A stretch of DNA of 23,992 bases, taken from positions 1-23,992 of IMG/VR virus record IMGVR_UViG_3300028025_002682, one strand, 5' to 3'. A model generated the notes under the pieces. That model was not told the origin of the DNA and ran no database searches. It saw only the letters and a program-made list of their open reading frames with translations. Of this stretch, positions 8,492 to 14,419 are shown in pieces; the first letter of the stretch is position 1, and every line of letters begins with the position of its first letter. This DNA is from a virus. The position numbers and the translations under genes are program-made.

Positions 8492-8881
8492 ATGACTATA
8501 CAATCTAGCGGAGCGATATCAATTAGCGACGTAAACACCGAACTTACTCTGGCGAGTAACTATTCGAGTAGTTTATCGTTTCTAAATGGTTTCATTAAAA
8601 CTTCACGACCAGCATCTCCAAATTTACAGGCTTTTTATGGATTAACATATTTCCAAAAAAATAATGACGGAAATTGTTCCAACGGTAATTGTACAGCAAA
8701 CTGCAACTGTGGTAATATTCAATGTACTAATTGTACTATTTCTGGTCAGGTAAACTGTGTTAATTGCGATGCACAAAAATGGCTACAGGTTAATTGCAAC
8801 TGTGCTTGCACATATAACTGTAATACCTCTCAAGTTTCATATAACTGTGATTGTGCATGCGATTGCGCTTGTGGTGGATAA
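8492..8881 (+). CDS. Cys-rich protein with phage-structural N-terminus; candidate RiPP-type substrate
   Basis: A 129-residue protein in two parts. Residues 1-55 (beginning MTIQSSGAISISDVNTEL, later LNGFI and LQAFYGL) have no Cys and resemble the short N-terminal module of T4-like aquatic phage virion proteins that carry SGAISxSD. Residues 62-127 hold 17 Cys, nearly all preceded by Asn, Asp or Ala (for example NCNCAC, CDCACDCACGG). It ends GG. AGGA precedes the start. A radical SAM/SPASM enzyme gene begins 37 bases downstream. Inference: the Cys-rich tail is the target of thioether or other radical modification. Alternatives are a disulfide-rich or metal-binding tail tip, or a metallothionein-like protein. 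Confidence 0.8.
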   Translation: MTIQSSGAISISDVNTELTLASNYSSSLSFLNGFIKTSRPASPNLQAFYGLTYFQKNNDGNCSNGNCTANCNCGNIQCTNCTISGQVNCVNCDAQKWLQVNCNCACTYNCNTSQVSYNCDCACDCACGG

Positions 8882-8917
8882 TATTAAATATTTGAATTAT
8901 ATTCTGAAGGGTTTGAA

Positions 8918-10354
8918 ATGATTTTTGAAATACACGCTGAACGTAATAAAACTGATAAAAAGATCTTTTATTATGACAATGAAACAAACACTCTAAAAGA
9001 TGAGACTGGAATTGTTTATGAGTCTCAACAACAAGCTAATTCTAAGAATCAATCTCCAGTAGTGCCATTCTCAAAAGACGTTCCTCTTAAAAAGAGTAGG
9101 GCAGTAAAACTTGTGAAAATCCAAATGGGACTTTCTTGTAATTACGCATGTGATTACTGTTCTCAAAAATTCGTTGAACGACCAAAAGAAACCAATCCAA
9201 AAGATATTGAAAATTTTATGGAATTGTTTAATGAATTGGAATTTGACGAGCAACGAGGTTTAAAAGTAGAATTCTGGGGTGGCGAACCATTTGTTTATTG
9301 GAAAACATTTAAACCATTGGCAGAAGCCATTGCAAAAAAATTCTCAGACTGGAAACAGCCACCAAAGTTTTCAGTTATCACTAATGGTTCTCTTTTAACT
9401 GAGGATATTTGTGCTTGGTTATATGCCATGGGATTTAGTGTGGCGATTAGTCACGATGGTCCAGGACAACATGTTCGTGGACCAGATCCCTTTGACGATC
9501 CAGAAGTTAAGAAAACTGTTCTTGAGTTTTATGAGGTGATGTCCAAAGAAGGTAGAATGAGTTTCAACTCAATGTTGAATGCGAAGAATACTAGTCGCAA
9601 ACTAATTCATGATTGGTTTGTTAATTTCACACAAGACCCAATGGTTCCTCTCGGTGAAGGTGGATTCGTTGATGCTTATGATGACGATGGTCTTGCGAGT
9701 TCTCTTCAAACTAAACGAGATATGTTTGAGTTCCGTCGCAAAGCATTTGCTGATATATTTGCCAATGATGGTTATATTGGATTTGGCGGTATCATTCAAA
9801 AGATTGATGGGTTCACTAATGCTGTCCTAACTCACAAGCATGCAGATTATCTTGGACAAAAATGTGGAATGGATGAAGAAGATACTATTTCATTTGACCT
9901 CCGTGGTAATGTTATCACTTGTCAAAACGTAAGTGCCACTGAAATATCTAAAAATGGTGAATCCCATTTAGGTGGAAACCTTTCTGACTTTGATAATATT
10001 TCTATTAACACGGCAACTCACTGGCGCAATCGTCAAGAATGTTCAAAGTGCCCAGTGTTACATATATGTCAAGGTGCGTGTATGTTCTTAGAAGGTGATT
10101 ATTGGAAAGCATCATGTAATAATGCATACTCAGACGCTGTTCCACTATTTGCATTATCTCTTGAGAAAATCACAGGATACATTCCATATTTAATTAAAAA
10201 TACAGAGTTACCATTAGAGCGTCAAGACATTTGGGGTACTATGTATGAACACGTAGAAGATCCACCAAAACGTAAAATTATTCCTATTTTACAGTCACAA
10301 GAAAAAGCCATTTTAGATGGTATTGAAATATTTAAGGAGAAAACGTATGATTAG
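8918..10354 (+). CDS. Radical SAM/SPASM peptide-modifying enzyme
   Basis: A 478-residue protein. A 65-residue N-terminal extension precedes the radical SAM core. MGLSCNYACDYCSQK contains the CxxxCxxC cluster site (C74, C78, C81) and FWGGEP (119-124) is the SAM-binding motif. The C-terminal SPASM domain is complete: C316-x13-G-x4-C335, then CSKCPVLHICQGAC (C375, C378, C384, C388), then C400. This predicts three [4Fe-4S] clusters. SPASM enzymes modify peptides or proteins: sactipeptide/ranthipeptide thioethers, PqqE-type crosslinks or formylglycine. The natural partner is the Cys-rich protein immediately upstream. GAAGG lies seven bases before the ATG. Function is firm at class level; the reaction is unknown. 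Confidence 0.92.
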   Translation: MIFEIHAERNKTDKKIFYYDNETNTLKDETGIVYESQQQANSKNQSPVVPFSKDVPLKKSRAVKLVKIQMGLSCNYACDYCSQKFVERPKETNPKDIENFMELFNELEFDEQRGLKVEFWGGEPFVYWKTFKPLAEAIAKKFSDWKQPPKFSVITNGSLLTEDICAWLYAMGFSVAISHDGPGQHVRGPDPFDDPEVKKTVLEFYEVMSKEGRMSFNSMLNAKNTSRKLIHDWFVNFTQDPMVPLGEGGFVDAYDDDGLASSLQTKRDMFEFRRKAFADIFANDGYIGFGGIIQKIDGFTNAVLTHKHADYLGQKCGMDEEDTISFDLRGNVITCQNVSATEISKNGESHLGGNLSDFDNISINTATHWRNRQECSKCPVLHICQGACMFLEGDYWKASCNNAYSDAVPLFALSLEKITGYIPYLIKNTELPLERQDIWGTMYEHVEDPPKRKIIPILQSQEKAILDGIEIFKEKTYD

Positions 10355-10691
10355 CAATTTAGCATTAATCGACAACCCAAAGGTAAGAGAATTGGGATTT
10401 AAACTAATGGAATTATCAAATGTTGTAGATATTCGATTTTTCCCAACATTAAGAGATGATCTAAAACAACTCGCAGGAGAAAATGTAGTGACATACACTG
10501 CAGTTATTTTAAAAGATAATAAATTTGAACGTGTGTTTGTTATAACACCAGAAGAAATGTATATGAATGACGATAATCATCAAATGGTTATTGATCAAAT
10601 GATTTCTAAAATTAATGATGCTATGACAAATACCAGAGGAAATCTTATTAACGCTATCGTAATTCCAGAATCAACACCAACTGGGGAATAA
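10347..10691 (+). CDS. Hypothetical protein in the radical SAM cluster (114 aa)
   Basis: The start at 10347 (MISNLALIDNPKVRELG) is chosen because AAGGAG lies seven bases before it; an in-frame ATG at 10317 lacks a site. The protein is mixed alpha/beta: a helix (PKVRELGFKLMELSNV), strands (VVTYTAVILKDNKFERVFVI) and a helix (HQMVIDQMISKINDAM). It has no Cys, so it is unlikely to be a substrate. It overlaps the radical SAM gene by eight bases and is probably co-translated. A role as a peptide-recognition or chaperone partner is possible but has no motif support. Confidence 0.65.
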   Translation: MISNLALIDNPKVRELGFKLMELSNVVDIRFFPTLRDDLKQLAGENVVTYTAVILKDNKFERVFVITPEEMYMNDDNHQMVIDQMISKINDAMTNTRGNLINAIVIPESTPTGE

Positions 10692-10693
10692 TT

Positions 10694-11431
10694 TTGTTAA
10701 CCAAAACTGACGTGCTTGCTTATTGGTATAAGCAAAAGAAATTTGCCATTCCTTTATTAAATCCATCTCCAAATTCGTTTGACCACAAAAATAGTTTTAT
10801 TGTTCGTGGTTCCAAAAAGCGACTTGTTGTTCTATGTTCGCACCCACATACAGCCACAGAAATTTCTGGGTTTAATAATCAACCTAATATTAGTTTTTAT
10901 ACAGCTAGTATGCATAAAACATATCCAGAGTTTACTTTCGACGCAGATAAGCCATGGTTACTAAGATTAGACACTGCTGGTATTAATTGGGAAGTTAATT
11001 ATGAATTTCATGATCAAAAAGAACTTGAAGAAGTAGTATTAACCTTTAATAAAGGATGTGCGTTGGATCACATGTTCCAACGCATAGATAATAACAGAAT
11101 ATTATTCTTTAATAACTTTGATGCGTGTCAAGGAAGAATTTATCAGGCGAAGTTTCAACAAGCCACTGAAATTATTGAGAACAATATTCAAGATGATGAG
11201 TTTATGCAATACCCATTTATCATTAGTTACGCAAGAAGTGAAGATATTAGTTTACAAGAAGCTGCGAAGCGTGTCATTATCAAGAATAAGATATTAGAAG
11301 CTGGGCTGGCAGAAAGTGAAACATTAAGAATTAGAACAAAGAAAGCGATTCTAAATTCTTCTTCTCTACAAGAGTTACATGATGTATTCAACAAATTCGA
11401 CACTGAACTTTCAAAGTATGGTAATTTATGA
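10694..11431 (+). CDS. Hypothetical protein in the radical SAM cluster (245 aa)
   Basis: The frame opens with a TTG codon (10694) preceded by GGGGA, and no ATG lies near the front, so TTG initiation is the best reading. Residues 1-165 are mixed alpha/beta with several aromatic and His residues (LCSHPHTATE, FFNNFDACQG). Residues 170-245 are helical (YARSEDISLQEAAKRVIIKN, KKAILNSSSLQELHDVFNKF) and resemble helical tails seen in some phage structural proteins. No catalytic motif is recognised. It overlaps the asparagine-synthetase-like gene by four bases, so it belongs to the same unit. Confidence 0.6.
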   Translation: MLTKTDVLAYWYKQKKFAIPLLNPSPNSFDHKNSFIVRGSKKRLVVLCSHPHTATEISGFNNQPNISFYTASMHKTYPEFTFDADKPWLLRLDTAGINWEVNYEFHDQKELEEVVLTFNKGCALDHMFQRIDNNRILFFNNFDACQGRIYQAKFQQATEIIENNIQDDEFMQYPFIISYARSEDISLQEAAKRVIIKNKILEAGLAESETLRIRTKKAILNSSSLQELHDVFNKFDTELSKYGNL

Positions 11432-12546
11432 TCTATTATAATAGTTATGACATTTTTAATAATCCTGTGTATCACAGTGATTTGGAAAAGGTTCCTGGTG
11501 GTCGGGAATTTTCAACTCTATTTAAAATGTTTAGTCAAAACATCACATTCTTAGATAGAACGAATACAATTAGTATTCCGCTAAACATGACAACCCCAGA
11601 TTTTTTAAAGATGCCTTCAATGGATATGTTCACACATAAATCTTTTGAAGAAATCTGCGATGAACGTGCCAGACAATTATTGGATCATGCAGCAAAAACT
11701 AACAGAACCATTACTGTTATGTATAGTGGTGGTATTGACTCAACATTAATTCTATGTTCGTTTCTTAAAAACGCTAAGCCTGAAGAGCTAAAGAATATAA
11801 TTGTTTTACTATCAGAAAAAAGTATTCTTGAAAATCCTGTTTTCTACCACCAATTTATCATAAAACATTTTAAATGTGATTCTAGCTACAAGTTCCCTGC
11901 TTACATGGGTAATGATAAAATCTTATTTGTTACTGGTGAAAATGCTGACCAATTATTTGGTTCACAAGTGACTGGTGGTCTTGTTACTTTTGCTGGATAT
12001 GATTCTTTATTGTCTCCTATTGAGCAGATGGAAGGTACTCTTATAGACTTCTTTATCGAAGGGTCGCCAACATTTTATAAACCATATATCGCTCCAGCAT
12101 ATCATATACTAAAACGTGTTACTGATGCTGCACCGATTAAAATTGATAACGTGTATAAATTCCTTTGGTGGATTAATTTCGCTATGAAGTGGCAATCTGT
12201 TTATGTTCGTATTATGCCATATTCTTGGAATAGAGATAATATTAAATTTGAAGAAAACTACACAACATTTTATTCCCCTGCGCAATTCCAACTGTGGTCA
12301 ATGCACAACTCAGATAAATTAATAGGTGATTCTCCAGAAACATTTAAGTTTATTCAAAAGAAATATATACTTGATGTCAATGGTGATGCTGGATATTTAA
12401 AGAAGTTAAAAATGGGTAGTTTGGCAAGCATGGTTCAACGAAAGGAAAACTGTTTCTTTATTGACGATAAACTCAAGTATCATGACACCTTTCCCGCAGA
12501 AGAATATTATAACTATAATAATGATTTTGTTGGGATGTTAAAATAA
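11428..12546 (+). CDS. Asparagine-synthetase-like PP-loop enzyme without glutaminase domain
   Basis: A 372-residue protein. The PP-loop SGGIDST (100-106) binds ATP, and GENADQLFG (170-178) matches the GEGADELFGGY motif of asparagine synthetase. There is no N-terminal Cys2 and no class II glutaminase domain; residues 1-90 are instead a short unrelated region. Such stand-alone synthetase domains adenylate a carboxylate and form an amide, as in lasso-peptide cyclases and beta-lactam synthetases. With a radical SAM enzyme and a possible peptide substrate upstream, an amide-forming step on that substrate is a reasonable inference. A free-ammonia asparagine synthetase is the alternative. Confidence 0.8.
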   Translation: MIYYNSYDIFNNPVYHSDLEKVPGGREFSTLFKMFSQNITFLDRTNTISIPLNMTTPDFLKMPSMDMFTHKSFEEICDERARQLLDHAAKTNRTITVMYSGGIDSTLILCSFLKNAKPEELKNIIVLLSEKSILENPVFYHQFIIKHFKCDSSYKFPAYMGNDKILFVTGENADQLFGSQVTGGLVTFAGYDSLLSPIEQMEGTLIDFFIEGSPTFYKPYIAPAYHILKRVTDAAPIKIDNVYKFLWWINFAMKWQSVYVRIMPYSWNRDNIKFEENYTTFYSPAQFQLWSMHNSDKLIGDSPETFKFIQKKYILDVNGDAGYLKKLKMGSLASMVQRKENCFFIDDKLKYHDTFPAEEYYNYNNDFVGMLK

Positions 12547-12567
12547 TTTTTATAGAGCACTACACAA

Positions 12568-13245
12568 ATGAAAATTTACTCCAAAGAAACTAAATCGGCT
12601 CTTGACTATACGGATAGTATGTATCCGTCATCAGCAGCATTGTTTGATGCAACTGATAATAAAGATCAGGGGTTTACATACACCAATGAGTACTCAACGA
12701 TTTATGGGTATGTTTTATCAGGTGAGGTTAAGTTACCGAATGGAATGACTGCTTATGAAGGTCAATATTTTTGTTATTGGTCTTGGGGTTGTGATGAGAT
12801 TCATTACACAGGACAAGTTGTAATAATCACCAGAATAGGATTTCGTGGACAGAACTCAGTTGGTGGTCCATTAGAGAACTCAGGAAGATTATGTTACATT
12901 GATGGATGTAGCGATACACTATTAATCTATCCTCCACGTCTTGGCGATCCGACATTAAATGCATTATATTTTCCAGCAAACGTAAACCAAACCTATCACA
13001 TTCACCCAAGTATTCGTCTTGGTGTAGTTGCTTCAGGTTCAGGGTTCGCTTGCTTAAAAAATTCTGATGGTACAGAAACACAAATTGAATTGAACAAAGG
13101 TACAGTCTGGTGTATTGAAGAAAGAGAAATGCATAGGTTCATCACAAAAGACGAAGGTATGGTTGTTATTGCATTCCATCCAGATGGAGATTGGGGACCA
13201 ACAGATCATAATCACACAATGCTTAACAGGACTTACATAAAGTAA
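12568..13245 (+). CDS. Bicupin-like protein
   Basis: A 225-residue protein with two cupin-like halves. The N-terminal half (about 43-95, with YGYVLSGEVKLPNG and GQYFCYW) lacks metal His. The C-terminal half (about 140-205) has HIHPSIRLG (H144, H146) and EREMHRF (H189), the usual cupin metal ligands, then FHPDGDWGPTDHNHTML (H204 onward). One active and one structural cupin is common in small oxygenases and isomerases. It closes the radical SAM cluster, 21 bases after the synthetase-like gene, with only a weak ribosome-binding site. A role as an oxygenase on the same peptide is possible; a sugar-binding or tail role is the alternative. Confidence 0.7.
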   Translation: MKIYSKETKSALDYTDSMYPSSAALFDATDNKDQGFTYTNEYSTIYGYVLSGEVKLPNGMTAYEGQYFCYWSWGCDEIHYTGQVVIITRIGFRGQNSVGGPLENSGRLCYIDGCSDTLLIYPPRLGDPTLNALYFPANVNQTYHIHPSIRLGVVASGSGFACLKNSDGTETQIELNKGTVWCIEEREMHRFITKDEGMVVIAFHPDGDWGPTDHNHTMLNRTYIK

Positions 13246-13247
13246 GT

Positions 13248-13282
13248 TTGTCTTGCAATCAATTGTAATGTATAATTGATGT
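13248..13282 (+). promoter_or_regulatory. Promoter of the tmRNA gene
   Basis: TTGTCT at 13248-13253, a 17-bp spacer beginning TGCAA and ending G, and TATAAT at 13271-13276. Predicted +1 is near 13283, at the front of the acceptor piece. It starts two bases after the cupin stop codon. There is no room for a riboswitch between promoter and RNA. Confidence 0.85.
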
Positions 13283-13346
13283 ATTGCTGTATGAAGCAAA
13301 GAGAAAGGTGTTCTGGACGAGGGTTCGATTCCCTCCACCTCCACCA
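13283..13346 (+). ncRNA. ssrA: Two-piece tmRNA, acceptor piece
   Basis: About 64 bases ending in the tRNA-like acceptor of tmRNA. The T arm is GAGGG (13319-13323), loop TTCGATT (13324-13330) and CCCTC (13331-13335). CACCTCC (13336-13342) then pairs with GGGGGTG of the coding piece, and ACCA (13343-13346) is encoded. A hairpin TTGCT/AGCAA (13284-13299) sits at the 5' end. G3 of the coding piece faces U in this strand, the G-U pair recognised by alanyl-tRNA synthetase. The acceptor half lies before the coding half, the order of circularly permuted tmRNA genes in alphaproteobacteria and some other lineages. Processing ends are inferred. Confidence 0.9.
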
Positions 13347-13403
13347 AAAGTGCTAGCAGAAGATAAAGTGCTACAGTCTGTTAAGAGACAGACCACTTCT
13401 GAT
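13347..13403 (+). other. tmRNA intervening segment (removed by processing)
   Basis: This stretch lies between the acceptor CCA and the first G of the coding piece. It can fold into a long hairpin: CAGA/TCTG and AGTG/CACT outer helices around GTCTGT/ACAGAC (loop TAAGAG). The repeat AAAGTGCTA occurs twice. In permuted tmRNA precursors such a segment links the two ends of the acceptor stem and is excised. Confidence 0.75.
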
Positions 13404-13630
13404 GGGGGTGACTAGGTTTCGACAGGGCGACGAGTAAACAAGTGGACAGCACGGGAATGTGAAACCCGTTAGGATTGAGGAAAGTACAGTAATGTGGTGG
13501 CAACATCATATCAGTATCTCTCGGTCGAAGAAGCAAAAAACGTAAACGCAAACGACGCACAGTTCGCATTAGCAGCCTAAACACTGCTTAGGGTTTCGGT
13601 AGCTTTCCTCGTAACAGAATAAGCTACCAT
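13404..13630 (+). ncRNA. ssrA: Two-piece tmRNA, coding piece (tag ANDAQFALAA)
   Basis: It begins GGGGGTG (13404-13410), which completes a 7-bp acceptor stem with the acceptor piece. The tmRNA D-loop hallmark GGTTTCGACAGGG follows. A pseudoknot-type stem ACGGG/CCCGT lies just downstream. The tag frame is GCA at 13548 through TAA at 13578-13580, giving ANDAQFALAA; a longer reading from GCA at 13533 would add AKNVN. The ALAA end is a ClpXP/ClpAP degron. tmRNA rescues stalled ribosomes and tags the unfinished proteins. The 3' end is uncertain, between about 13590 and 13630. Phage tmRNA genes of two-piece form are known from related aquatic myophages. Confidence 0.92.
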
Positions 13631-13634
13631 TTTT
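13598..13634 (+). terminator. Rho-independent terminator after the tmRNA
   Basis: GGTAGCTT (13598-13605) pairs with AAGCTACC (13621-13628) over a 15-base loop, followed by ATTTTT. It could also form the 3' structure of the tmRNA precursor before trimming. Confidence 0.75.
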
Positions 13635-13655
13635 ATAATTTAAAAGGATGTTACT

Positions 13656-13916
13656 ATGGAAGTTAAACCATTGAAAGACAAGGTTCTTGTTGCTGAGAAC
13701 AAAAGAGAAAATACAACAGAATCTGGTATCATCCTTGAAGGTGCTGGGTTTGATCAGTCAAAGACTGGAACAGTTCTTGCCATTGGACCAGACGTTACAG
13801 AAGTTAAAGTTGGTGATGTGATTTATCTTGAGTGGAACAAAGCACAAGTTGTTAAGATTGGTGATGCTCAACGTGTAATGATTAAAGAAGAAAACATTGT
13901 CGCTGTAGTTGAGTGA
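13656..13916 (+). CDS. groES: GroES-like co-chaperonin
   Basis: An 86-residue protein matching Hsp10/GroES along its length: MEVKPLKDKVLVAE at the start, the mobile-loop region ENTTESGIIL (about 18-27) with the hydrophobic IIL that contacts GroEL, then GTVLAIGPD (38-46), VKVGDVIYL (51-59) and a C-terminal strand KEENIVAVVE. It is about ten residues shorter than bacterial GroES. Phage co-chaperonins such as T4 gp31 replace host GroES to fold the major capsid protein. An AAAGGATG ribosome-binding site precedes the start. It sits directly after the tmRNA terminator. Confidence 0.88.
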   Translation: MEVKPLKDKVLVAENKRENTTESGIILEGAGFDQSKTGTVLAIGPDVTEVKVGDVIYLEWNKAQVVKIGDAQRVMIKEENIVAVVE

Positions 13917-14419
13917 TGAAAGCTGCAGTTCTTTGTAATGGACCAAGTAGGATTCTTTTTACTGAACCTGATAGGTATAGCTACCTTATTGGTTGTAATA
14001 TACCTTGGATACAAGTAGATTCTACAGTAGTTTTGGATATAGGTATTGTTGCTCAATGGTGGCAACGTAAATTACCAAATGTGCCAACATGGTTTAGTGA
14101 ACATGCGTGGCGAGAAACAAAATTTAGAAACAGAGAGTATTTTAAAAATCACTTTCTTGGTTTAGTTAAGCCACTGCCAGAATATGATTCTAGTGGACAC
14201 GTTGCGTGTAGTAAGTTAATTGAACTTGGATATAATGAAATAGATATTTACGGATGTGACTCTTGGTTCACTAGCGACACCAGCAGTCATACTCATAAAT
14301 ATTGGGACACGAGACCAGATGATACTTCGAAACATGTGGTTGGTTGGCGAAACAGATGGAACAGTATTATGTCCAACAACCCAGATGTAAAAATAACATT
14401 TATAGGAGAACCTAAATGA
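13916..14419 (+). CDS. Possible GT42/DUF115-like transferase
   Basis: A 167-residue protein starting at the ATG in the TGATG overlap with groES. MKAAVLCNGPS resembles the nucleotide-binding opening (GNGPS) of CST-type sialyltransferases and DUF115 proteins. HVACSKLIELGYNEIDIYGCDSWF (about 95-118) matches the second part of that fold, where a helix and strand end in YGxD. It is much shorter than known enzymes (about 250-300 residues). A role in glycosylating a phage or host surface is possible. Confidence in the transferase label is modest; the gene itself is solid. Confidence 0.55.
   Translation: MKAAVLCNGPSRILFTEPDRYSYLIGCNIPWIQVDSTVVLDIGIVAQWWQRKLPNVPTWFSEHAWRETKFRNREYFKNHFLGLVKPLPEYDSSGHVACSKLIELGYNEIDIYGCDSWFTSDTSSHTHKYWDTRPDDTSKHVVGWRNRWNSIMSNNPDVKITFIGEPK

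Follow-up and report, generated by a model that had tools for sequence, protein, structure and literature searches.

Six consecutive rightward open reading frames (ORFs), here called P1 to P6, occupy positions 8492–13245 of the plus strand of IMGVR_UViG_3300028025_002682, a viral fragment analysed as a whole IMG/VR contig of 23,992 bp (the window). We propose, with a probability of about 0.75, that they include the genes for a phage fibre tip that is matured in the fashion of a ribosomally synthesized and post-translationally modified peptide (RiPP), probably through cysteine thioether crosslinks and tailoring of the C-terminus. The presumed substrate is P1 (8492–8881, 129 aa), a protein of tail-fibre-tip type with 17 cysteines within residues 62–127, a stretch of 66 residues, and the putative maturase is P2 (8918–10354, 478 aa), a radical SAM (S-adenosylmethionine) enzyme with a SPASM domain. 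An earlier note on this DNA had pointed to the same six genes, all of which were recovered, and to the same cysteine count, and had read the set as a RiPP-like pathway.

The proposal is carried above all by the linkage of the first two genes. Viral contigs were scanned with three seeds: a profile of the radical SAM enzyme, a profile of the Cys block and a DNA motif coding for N-C-N-C-[ND]-C-[ND]-C, the last two made without reference to the enzyme. The enzyme scan detected 52 relatives, and a Cys-rich ORF adjoined the radical SAM gene in 48 of them, the exceptions (L030, L035, L051 and L052) being truncated contigs. When the Cys-block profile was used, the radical SAM gene was found on the same strand, −134 to 1473 nt away, in 78 of the best 80 loci, and in the remaining two the contig ends less than 160 nt from the Cys ORF. 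The scan with the motif only resulted in at least 66 in-frame ORFs, a tally that leaves out two radical SAM loci with no in-frame motif; the enzyme gene was present for 60 of the 66 listed (54 in the nearby slice and 6 elsewhere in the record), while of the other six, four lie on contigs that end too soon and two are not tip-like. In the pooled set of 148 radical SAM loci, non-redundant at 90%, a tip was defined as a Cys-x-Cys (CxC) ORF on the same strand within 6 kb, and such an ORF was present in 136. The 12 tipless loci comprised six with short flanks, three with CxC variants that the definition misses and three with none. The regular occurrence of Cys-rich homologues without the enzyme gene, which that note named as the result that would tell against it, was not observed, bar contig ends. 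Relatives of the enzyme in GTDB genomes also sit with CxC fibres, in Burkholderiales, Rhodobacterales, Rhodospirillales and a few others.

Campylobacter phages carry many radical SAM genes, which were read there as metabolic (PMC2853527). We rejected such an auxiliary-gene reading here, as the linkage to the CxC tip holds with either gene as the seed. A putative dedicated tailoring enzyme is genetically tied to its presumed substrate, as would be expected of a RiPP system in the broad sense. The enzymes that accompany the 66-aa Cys block fall into one clade (57 rows; Shimodaira–Hasegawa-like approximate likelihood ratio test, SH-aLRT, 100), with those of the SKI type described below as a single clade within, and the tip-type labels change 19 times on the enzyme tree versus 68 times when shuffled. 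On this tree, enzyme and tip type evolve together. CxC tips were also found with another radical SAM group, which is much more divergent (42–151 bits; L219, L239, L279, L231, L224 and L285); one protein at these loci has 20 Cys among its 123 aa (TCQGCQTCQGCQKCQ...). At L181:5824-9212, in a phage or prophage, two tandem radical SAM genes follow a CxC fibre.

The homologues of P1 place the Cys-rich sequence at the end of tail fibres. CxC carriers match PHROG tail-fibre families, and the label given to P1 is based on its homologues, which occur as fusions with S74 or Hint domains and with long fibre N-termini. The CxC run is C-terminal in 86 of the 148 loci; it is followed by a domain of about 170 aa, of unassigned family and starting with SKI, in 31, by Hint in 9 and by S74 in 3, and a further 7 have C-terminal or Hint variants that were not classed by pattern. 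In L029, whose N-terminus weakly matches phrog_26746, the S74 match of Pfam begins at Ser129, the residue that follows ...CACFW, and Hint matches start where the CxC run ends. Self-cleavage is established for both the S74 and the Hint families; after it, the mature protein of each such architecture would end in the CxC run. In the SKI-type loci (L010–L022 and others) the Cys core is followed by the conserved C-terminal domain, about 170 aa long (CSKIICxKL...GYxRWA...PWSxHMAYLMG), which had no Pfam or PHROG match and is possibly another fibre-maturation domain. The product might instead be a secreted peptide, a bacteriocin or superinfection-exclusion factor, as the enzyme set resembles that of RiPP clusters and P1 is small in the window. 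We regard this as highly improbable: the homologues, encoded inside tail modules, are tail fibres that carry S74 or Hint domains or a long fibre N-terminus, and no leader protease or exporter was recognized among the annotated neighbour clusters. The earlier note had likewise favoured a modified virion part, such as a fibre tip, over a secreted peptide, and the recognizable fibres among the relatives agree with that view.

Within P1, a virion-type module (MTIQSSGAISISDVNTEL..., 8492–8674) lies ahead of the first Cys; it had been noted before as similar to a phage structural module, and it is common to other tips (MTLPxSGxIxxxDVNxEIG). The Cys core, Cys62–Cys127 (8675–8872), has the conserved sequences NCxNCDxQxWLQ and CACTYNC and contains Trp97 (8780–8782); the residues between the cysteines of P1-type proteins are mainly Asn, Asp and Ala. 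The protein ends in CDCACDCACGG, which runs to the stop codon, the Gly-Gly and stop occupying 8873–8881. An alignment of 26 loci demonstrated that the Cys columns are invariant and that the Cys spacing is kept in independent homologues, and the block is conserved beside the radical SAM gene in all untruncated loci. By the short-motif criterion alone, a CxC ORF was detected near the enzyme gene on the coding strand in 128 of the 148 loci and in only 1 in the opposite-strand control. Since the spacing is kept and the strands differ to this extent, the Cys block is not a product of chance. A tblastn search of the phage collection with P1 gave no match, which was expected with a low-complexity query.

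Another use of such a sequence would be a metal-binding needle similar to the HxH tip of T4 gp37, for which the radical SAM enzyme would only adjust ligands or help to load clusters, with no crosslinks formed. In a beta-strand or a trimeric needle, cysteines at every second position point to the same side, and phage fibres with iron-binding HxH tips are known (PMC11705849). The T4 tip shares with P1 an alternating-residue motif at the end of a fibre, but it has His in place of Cys and no dedicated modifying enzyme. Metal binding alone would leave an obligate SPASM maturase unexplained, as well as the co-evolution of enzyme and tip type and the match between halogenase and C-terminal Trp reported below, and we consider it improbable.

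P2 exceeds the cut-offs of Pfam Radical_SAM (2.3e-9; 38.1 bits, cut-off 29.5) and of the NCBIfam SPASM domain TIGR04085 (31.9 bits, cut-off 27) and matches phrog_1802 (1.4e-61). Its cluster motifs are C74-x3-C78-x2-C81 (9137–9160) and, in the seven-Cys SPASM region (9863–10117), C316-x13-G-x4-C335 and C375-x2-C378-x5-C384-x3-C388-x11-C400, an arrangement of the type found in anaerobic sulfatase maturases (anSME), from which two auxiliary clusters are expected. All ten cluster cysteines are present and are invariant across the 52 relatives, consistent with the three-cluster enzyme described in the earlier note. The likeness to anSME suggests that P2 might oxidize Cys side chains to formylglycine or another aldehyde and form no crosslinks, producing a reactive adhesive tip. 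The seven-Cys arrangement is identical to that of anSME, which is among the PDB sequence matches of P2 along with CteB (57.9 bits); P2 also aligns over its full length to an NCBIfam sulfatase maturase (45 bits), and GenBank annotates the enzyme of phage JWF as being of the sulfatase maturase type. However, the maturases that make thioethers or other crosslinks score better, the top NCBIfam scores being those of PapB, geopeptide, DynA and QhpD-type enzymes, and there is no CxPxR-type target, while a single substrate has up to 21 Cys. Oxidation of this kind is therefore unlikely in our view.

We conclude that P2 very probably modifies the Cys tip, and on balance we lean towards thioethers as the modification. 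The full-length plasmid homologues of P2 are QhpD/PeaB, with homology over residues 66–388. QhpD acts on a small protein subunit, in which it forms Cys-to-Asp/Glu thioethers, and a Trp of that substrate is oxidized by QhpG, a flavoprotein with a halogenase fold (PMC7876137); in ranthipeptides, Cys-Asn and Cys-Asp thioethers exist (PMC8326336). Multiple thioethers are favoured because the relatives of P2 are maturases of the QhpD and ranthipeptide types and because the spacers are mainly Asn, Asp and Ala. The strict C-N-C-N alternation would also suit an enzyme that epimerizes alternating residues to give a D/L beta-helix tip like polytheonamide, and the second radical SAM gene directly upstream in L181 and the B12-radical SAM genes of some loci point the same way. 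Yet the nearest families of P2 are dual-cluster SPASM crosslinkers, and epimerization does not need cysteines, which makes this the least probable of the alternatives considered.

In the mechanism that we propose, P1 would form the distal tip of a tail fibre or spike and would be present in virions. P2, a dual-auxiliary-cluster SPASM enzyme, would modify its Cys-rich core inside the infected cell, most likely by abstracting hydrogen from the spacer residues, and would form several Cys thioether crosslinks, resulting in a rigid, redox-proof tip with a possible role in attachment. P3, a proposed partner, would probably present or stabilize the substrate. Lineage-specific enzymes would then tailor the exposed C-terminus: P5, with P4 and the cupin as helpers, would activate the Gly-Gly carboxylate at the C-terminus by adenylation and convert it to an amide or ester, and in the sister loci a flavin halogenase would act on a C-terminal Trp. 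Where Hint or S74 follows the core, self-cleavage would expose an equivalent end.

The match between accessory enzymes and the last residues of the tip was observed across the sister loci, whose genes include 2-oxoglutarate oxygenases, an Asp/Asn hydroxylase, a desaturase, B12-radical SAM proteins and a flavoprotein of the tryptophan-halogenase family. A halogenase was called from the catalytic Lys in T-x-K-x-G-I-K-F-T-N-W together with GWxWKIP. The tip ended in Trp in 9/9 loci with an intact halogenase and in 0/56 without it, and in Gly-Gly in 8/10 loci with P5 and 1/55 without it; as the loci are related, these counts represent associations and not independent events, and p-values overstate them. 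The terminal Trp immediately precedes either the stop codon (...CACW) or the Ser of S74 (...CFW, followed by SDD). Similar results were obtained in a halogenase-seeded scan, in which all 26 further or overlapping loci with a radical SAM gene and a readable tip (21 distinct) ended in Trp; one more locus, L430, had no readable tip ORF. Additional P5-bearing radical SAM loci have tips that end in CG or CGG. Flavin-dependent tryptophan halogenases were observed in phage tail cassettes with a Trp-ending tip at L029, L075, L087, L092, L099, L103, L131, L247 and L408–L433, and halogenase loci with such tips are candidates for protein-level halogenation. Pairing of the halogenase with the internal conserved Trp97 gave no clear relation; the relation is with the C-terminal Trp. 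The flavoproteins of L130, L007 and L024 were not counted as halogenases: Arg replaces the catalytic Lys, the motif reads GWMFGVP and the tips end in Cys. The flavoprotein of L107 has no GWxWxIP motif, and its tip also ends in Cys. These four divergent flavoproteins are possibly hydroxylases. Genes of the fatty-acid-desaturase family (PF00487) were found between the radical SAM and Cys fibre genes in L060, L020, L048, L049, L021 and L022.

The remaining four genes of the window are more varied in their associations. P3 (10347–10691, about 114 aa) encodes a small alpha/beta protein that probably starts at 10347 and not at 10317, with a ribosome-binding site (aaggag) at 10334–10339. It is homologous to cluster 32 (hhalign 96.5%) and is related to tandem forms beside the radical SAM gene in other Cys-first loci; P3-like proteins, single or tandem, stand beside that gene in most Cys-first loci of the block type. 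P4 (10694–11431, 245 aa, TTG start) matches phrog_21671 and travels with P5; gp029 of phage JWF was not supported as its homologue (about 10% identity, no hhalign match above 30%). As the earlier note had stated, P5 (11428–12546) is an asparagine-synthetase-like, ATP-dependent PP-loop enzyme with no glutaminase domain: its motifs SGGIDS...SGENADQLFGS (PP-loop SGGxDS and SGExADxxFG) are invariant or nearly so among relatives, its score against Asparagine synthase PF00733 is 12.9 bits, below the gathering cut-off of 21, and its model (predicted local distance difference test, pLDDT, 72) gave weak Foldseek matches, the best being Asn and beta-lactam synthetases (E 3e-3). P6 (12568–13245), a bicupin in the earlier note, is bicupin-like: its HxH...H residues are conserved, and its score against Cupin PF07883 (21.4 bits) lies under the cut-off of 27.2.

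Several observations weigh against a crosslinked, C-terminally tailored tip. P2 scores far below every equivalog cut-off (PapB NF047865, 70.2 bits, cut-off 340; QhpD/PeaB TIGR03906, 61.5 bits, cut-off 453; SCIFF TIGR03974, 40.4 bits, cut-off 425), and the bond type is therefore unreadable from sequence. The position of P1 in a virion would follow that of its homologues, the window being a fragment, and no tip was detected within 6 kb of the radical SAM relatives L196, L205 and L208. The P3 model, although confident (pLDDT 83), has no significant PDB match and matches no known fold for substrate recognition; the reading of P3 as a RiPP recognition element was not supported. L116 has P5 and a tip that ends in Arg, and the tip of L134 ends in GG where P5 is missing. 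In the P5-seeded scan, P4-P5(-cupin) was common in phages with neither a radical SAM gene nor a CxC tip (among them L344–L359, L373–L382 and L400), and no GG-ending neighbour of P5 was found in phages of that kind. By its distribution, P4-P5-cupin is therefore a separable module. We rejected the six genes as one indivisible pathway, and of the six-gene pathway described in the earlier note the tie between enzyme and Cys tip stood, while P4, P5 and the cupin are not inseparable from it. The action of this module on the tip is the weakest link of our proposal, and the assignment of P5 to the tip C-terminus is tentative and somewhat doubtful. Small ORFs ending in TCGCGSSF(A/S)(A/V) beside the P5 gene in L346 and L351 appear to resemble the C-termini of A-type iron-sulfur carriers.

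Several known systems share parts of this arrangement. In the maturation of quinohemoprotein amine dehydrogenase (QhpC/QhpD/QhpG), the homologous SPASM enzyme acts on a small Cys-rich protein subunit, and QhpG also has a counterpart in the sister phage loci; the presumed phage substrate, however, is a fibre tip with many more Cys and with Asn spacers, and no 28-residue leader or QhpE-type protease was seen. Ranthipeptides and SCIFF peptides (CteB, PapB) likewise have a Cys-rich substrate adjoining a SPASM radical SAM gene, but the presumed phage substrates are fibres or virion-type proteins, and not a short precursor that is cleaved and released. Relatives of P1 resemble self-cleaving S74 or Hint tail fibres in carrying one of these domains directly after the CxC run, whereas descriptions of the known S74 fibres include no Cys tip modified by an enzyme and the tip in the window ends at the stop codon. 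The isolated Achromobacter phages JWF and 2-1 have NCNCDCNCNCSC before Hint in a tail-fibre gene two genes upstream of a homologous radical SAM gene; in JWF this tail-fibre gene directly follows the central tail fibre J region. Unlike the window, they have a short CxC run in place of the 66-aa block and no P5 or cupin, and their annotations read only Hint-family or hypothetical protein, and radical SAM. Viral flavin halogenases (phrog_2928; VirX1) belong to the same PF04820 family as those of the sister loci, where they are paired with Trp-ending tips; the window has none. No published account of a radical-SAM-matured virion part with matched C-terminal enzymes was found in the open-access literature, a search set without most subscription papers and preprints. 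The SPASM enzymes, the S74 and Hint fibres and the halogenases are all of known kinds; the combined system is likely new.

A permuted (two-piece) transfer-messenger RNA (tmRNA) with the tag ANDAQFALAA lies at 13254–13671 on the plus strand, directly 3' of the cupin gene. It matches Rfam beta_tmRNA and tmRNA_permuted, of betaproteobacterial type, and a GroES-like ORF begins at its 3' end. Further downstream, 13913–14419 (plus strand) weakly matches an alpha-2,3-sialyltransferase PHROG (1.2e-4). The P1–P6 set was also found on a Polynucleobacter genome contig (L132), and a Burkholderiales host is therefore likely for the phage of the window.

Phages and prophages of a widespread class, most of them from Proteobacteria and represented here by the window, would quite probably have fibres that end in a poly-CxC core with crosslinks made by a radical SAM enzyme and with a C-terminal residue finished by a lineage-specific one (halogenated Trp, capped Gly-Gly, hydroxylations), a non-proteinogenic tip that would bind receptors or contact membranes. 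This could be tested in the isolates JWF and 2-1 and in the cultured hosts Burkholderia paludis MSh1, Limnohabitans and Polynucleobacter. If true, phage radical SAM genes classed only as 'other' (phrog_1802) would gain a function and some viral halogenases a substrate, and the CxC motifs directly ahead of self-cleaving fibre domains would be explained. There would also exist a large natural library of SPASM enzymes working on folded protein tips. Virions would carry tips that are built by enzymes, crosslinked and possibly halogenated, so that the part of the phage that contacts the host would be made in the manner of a natural product.

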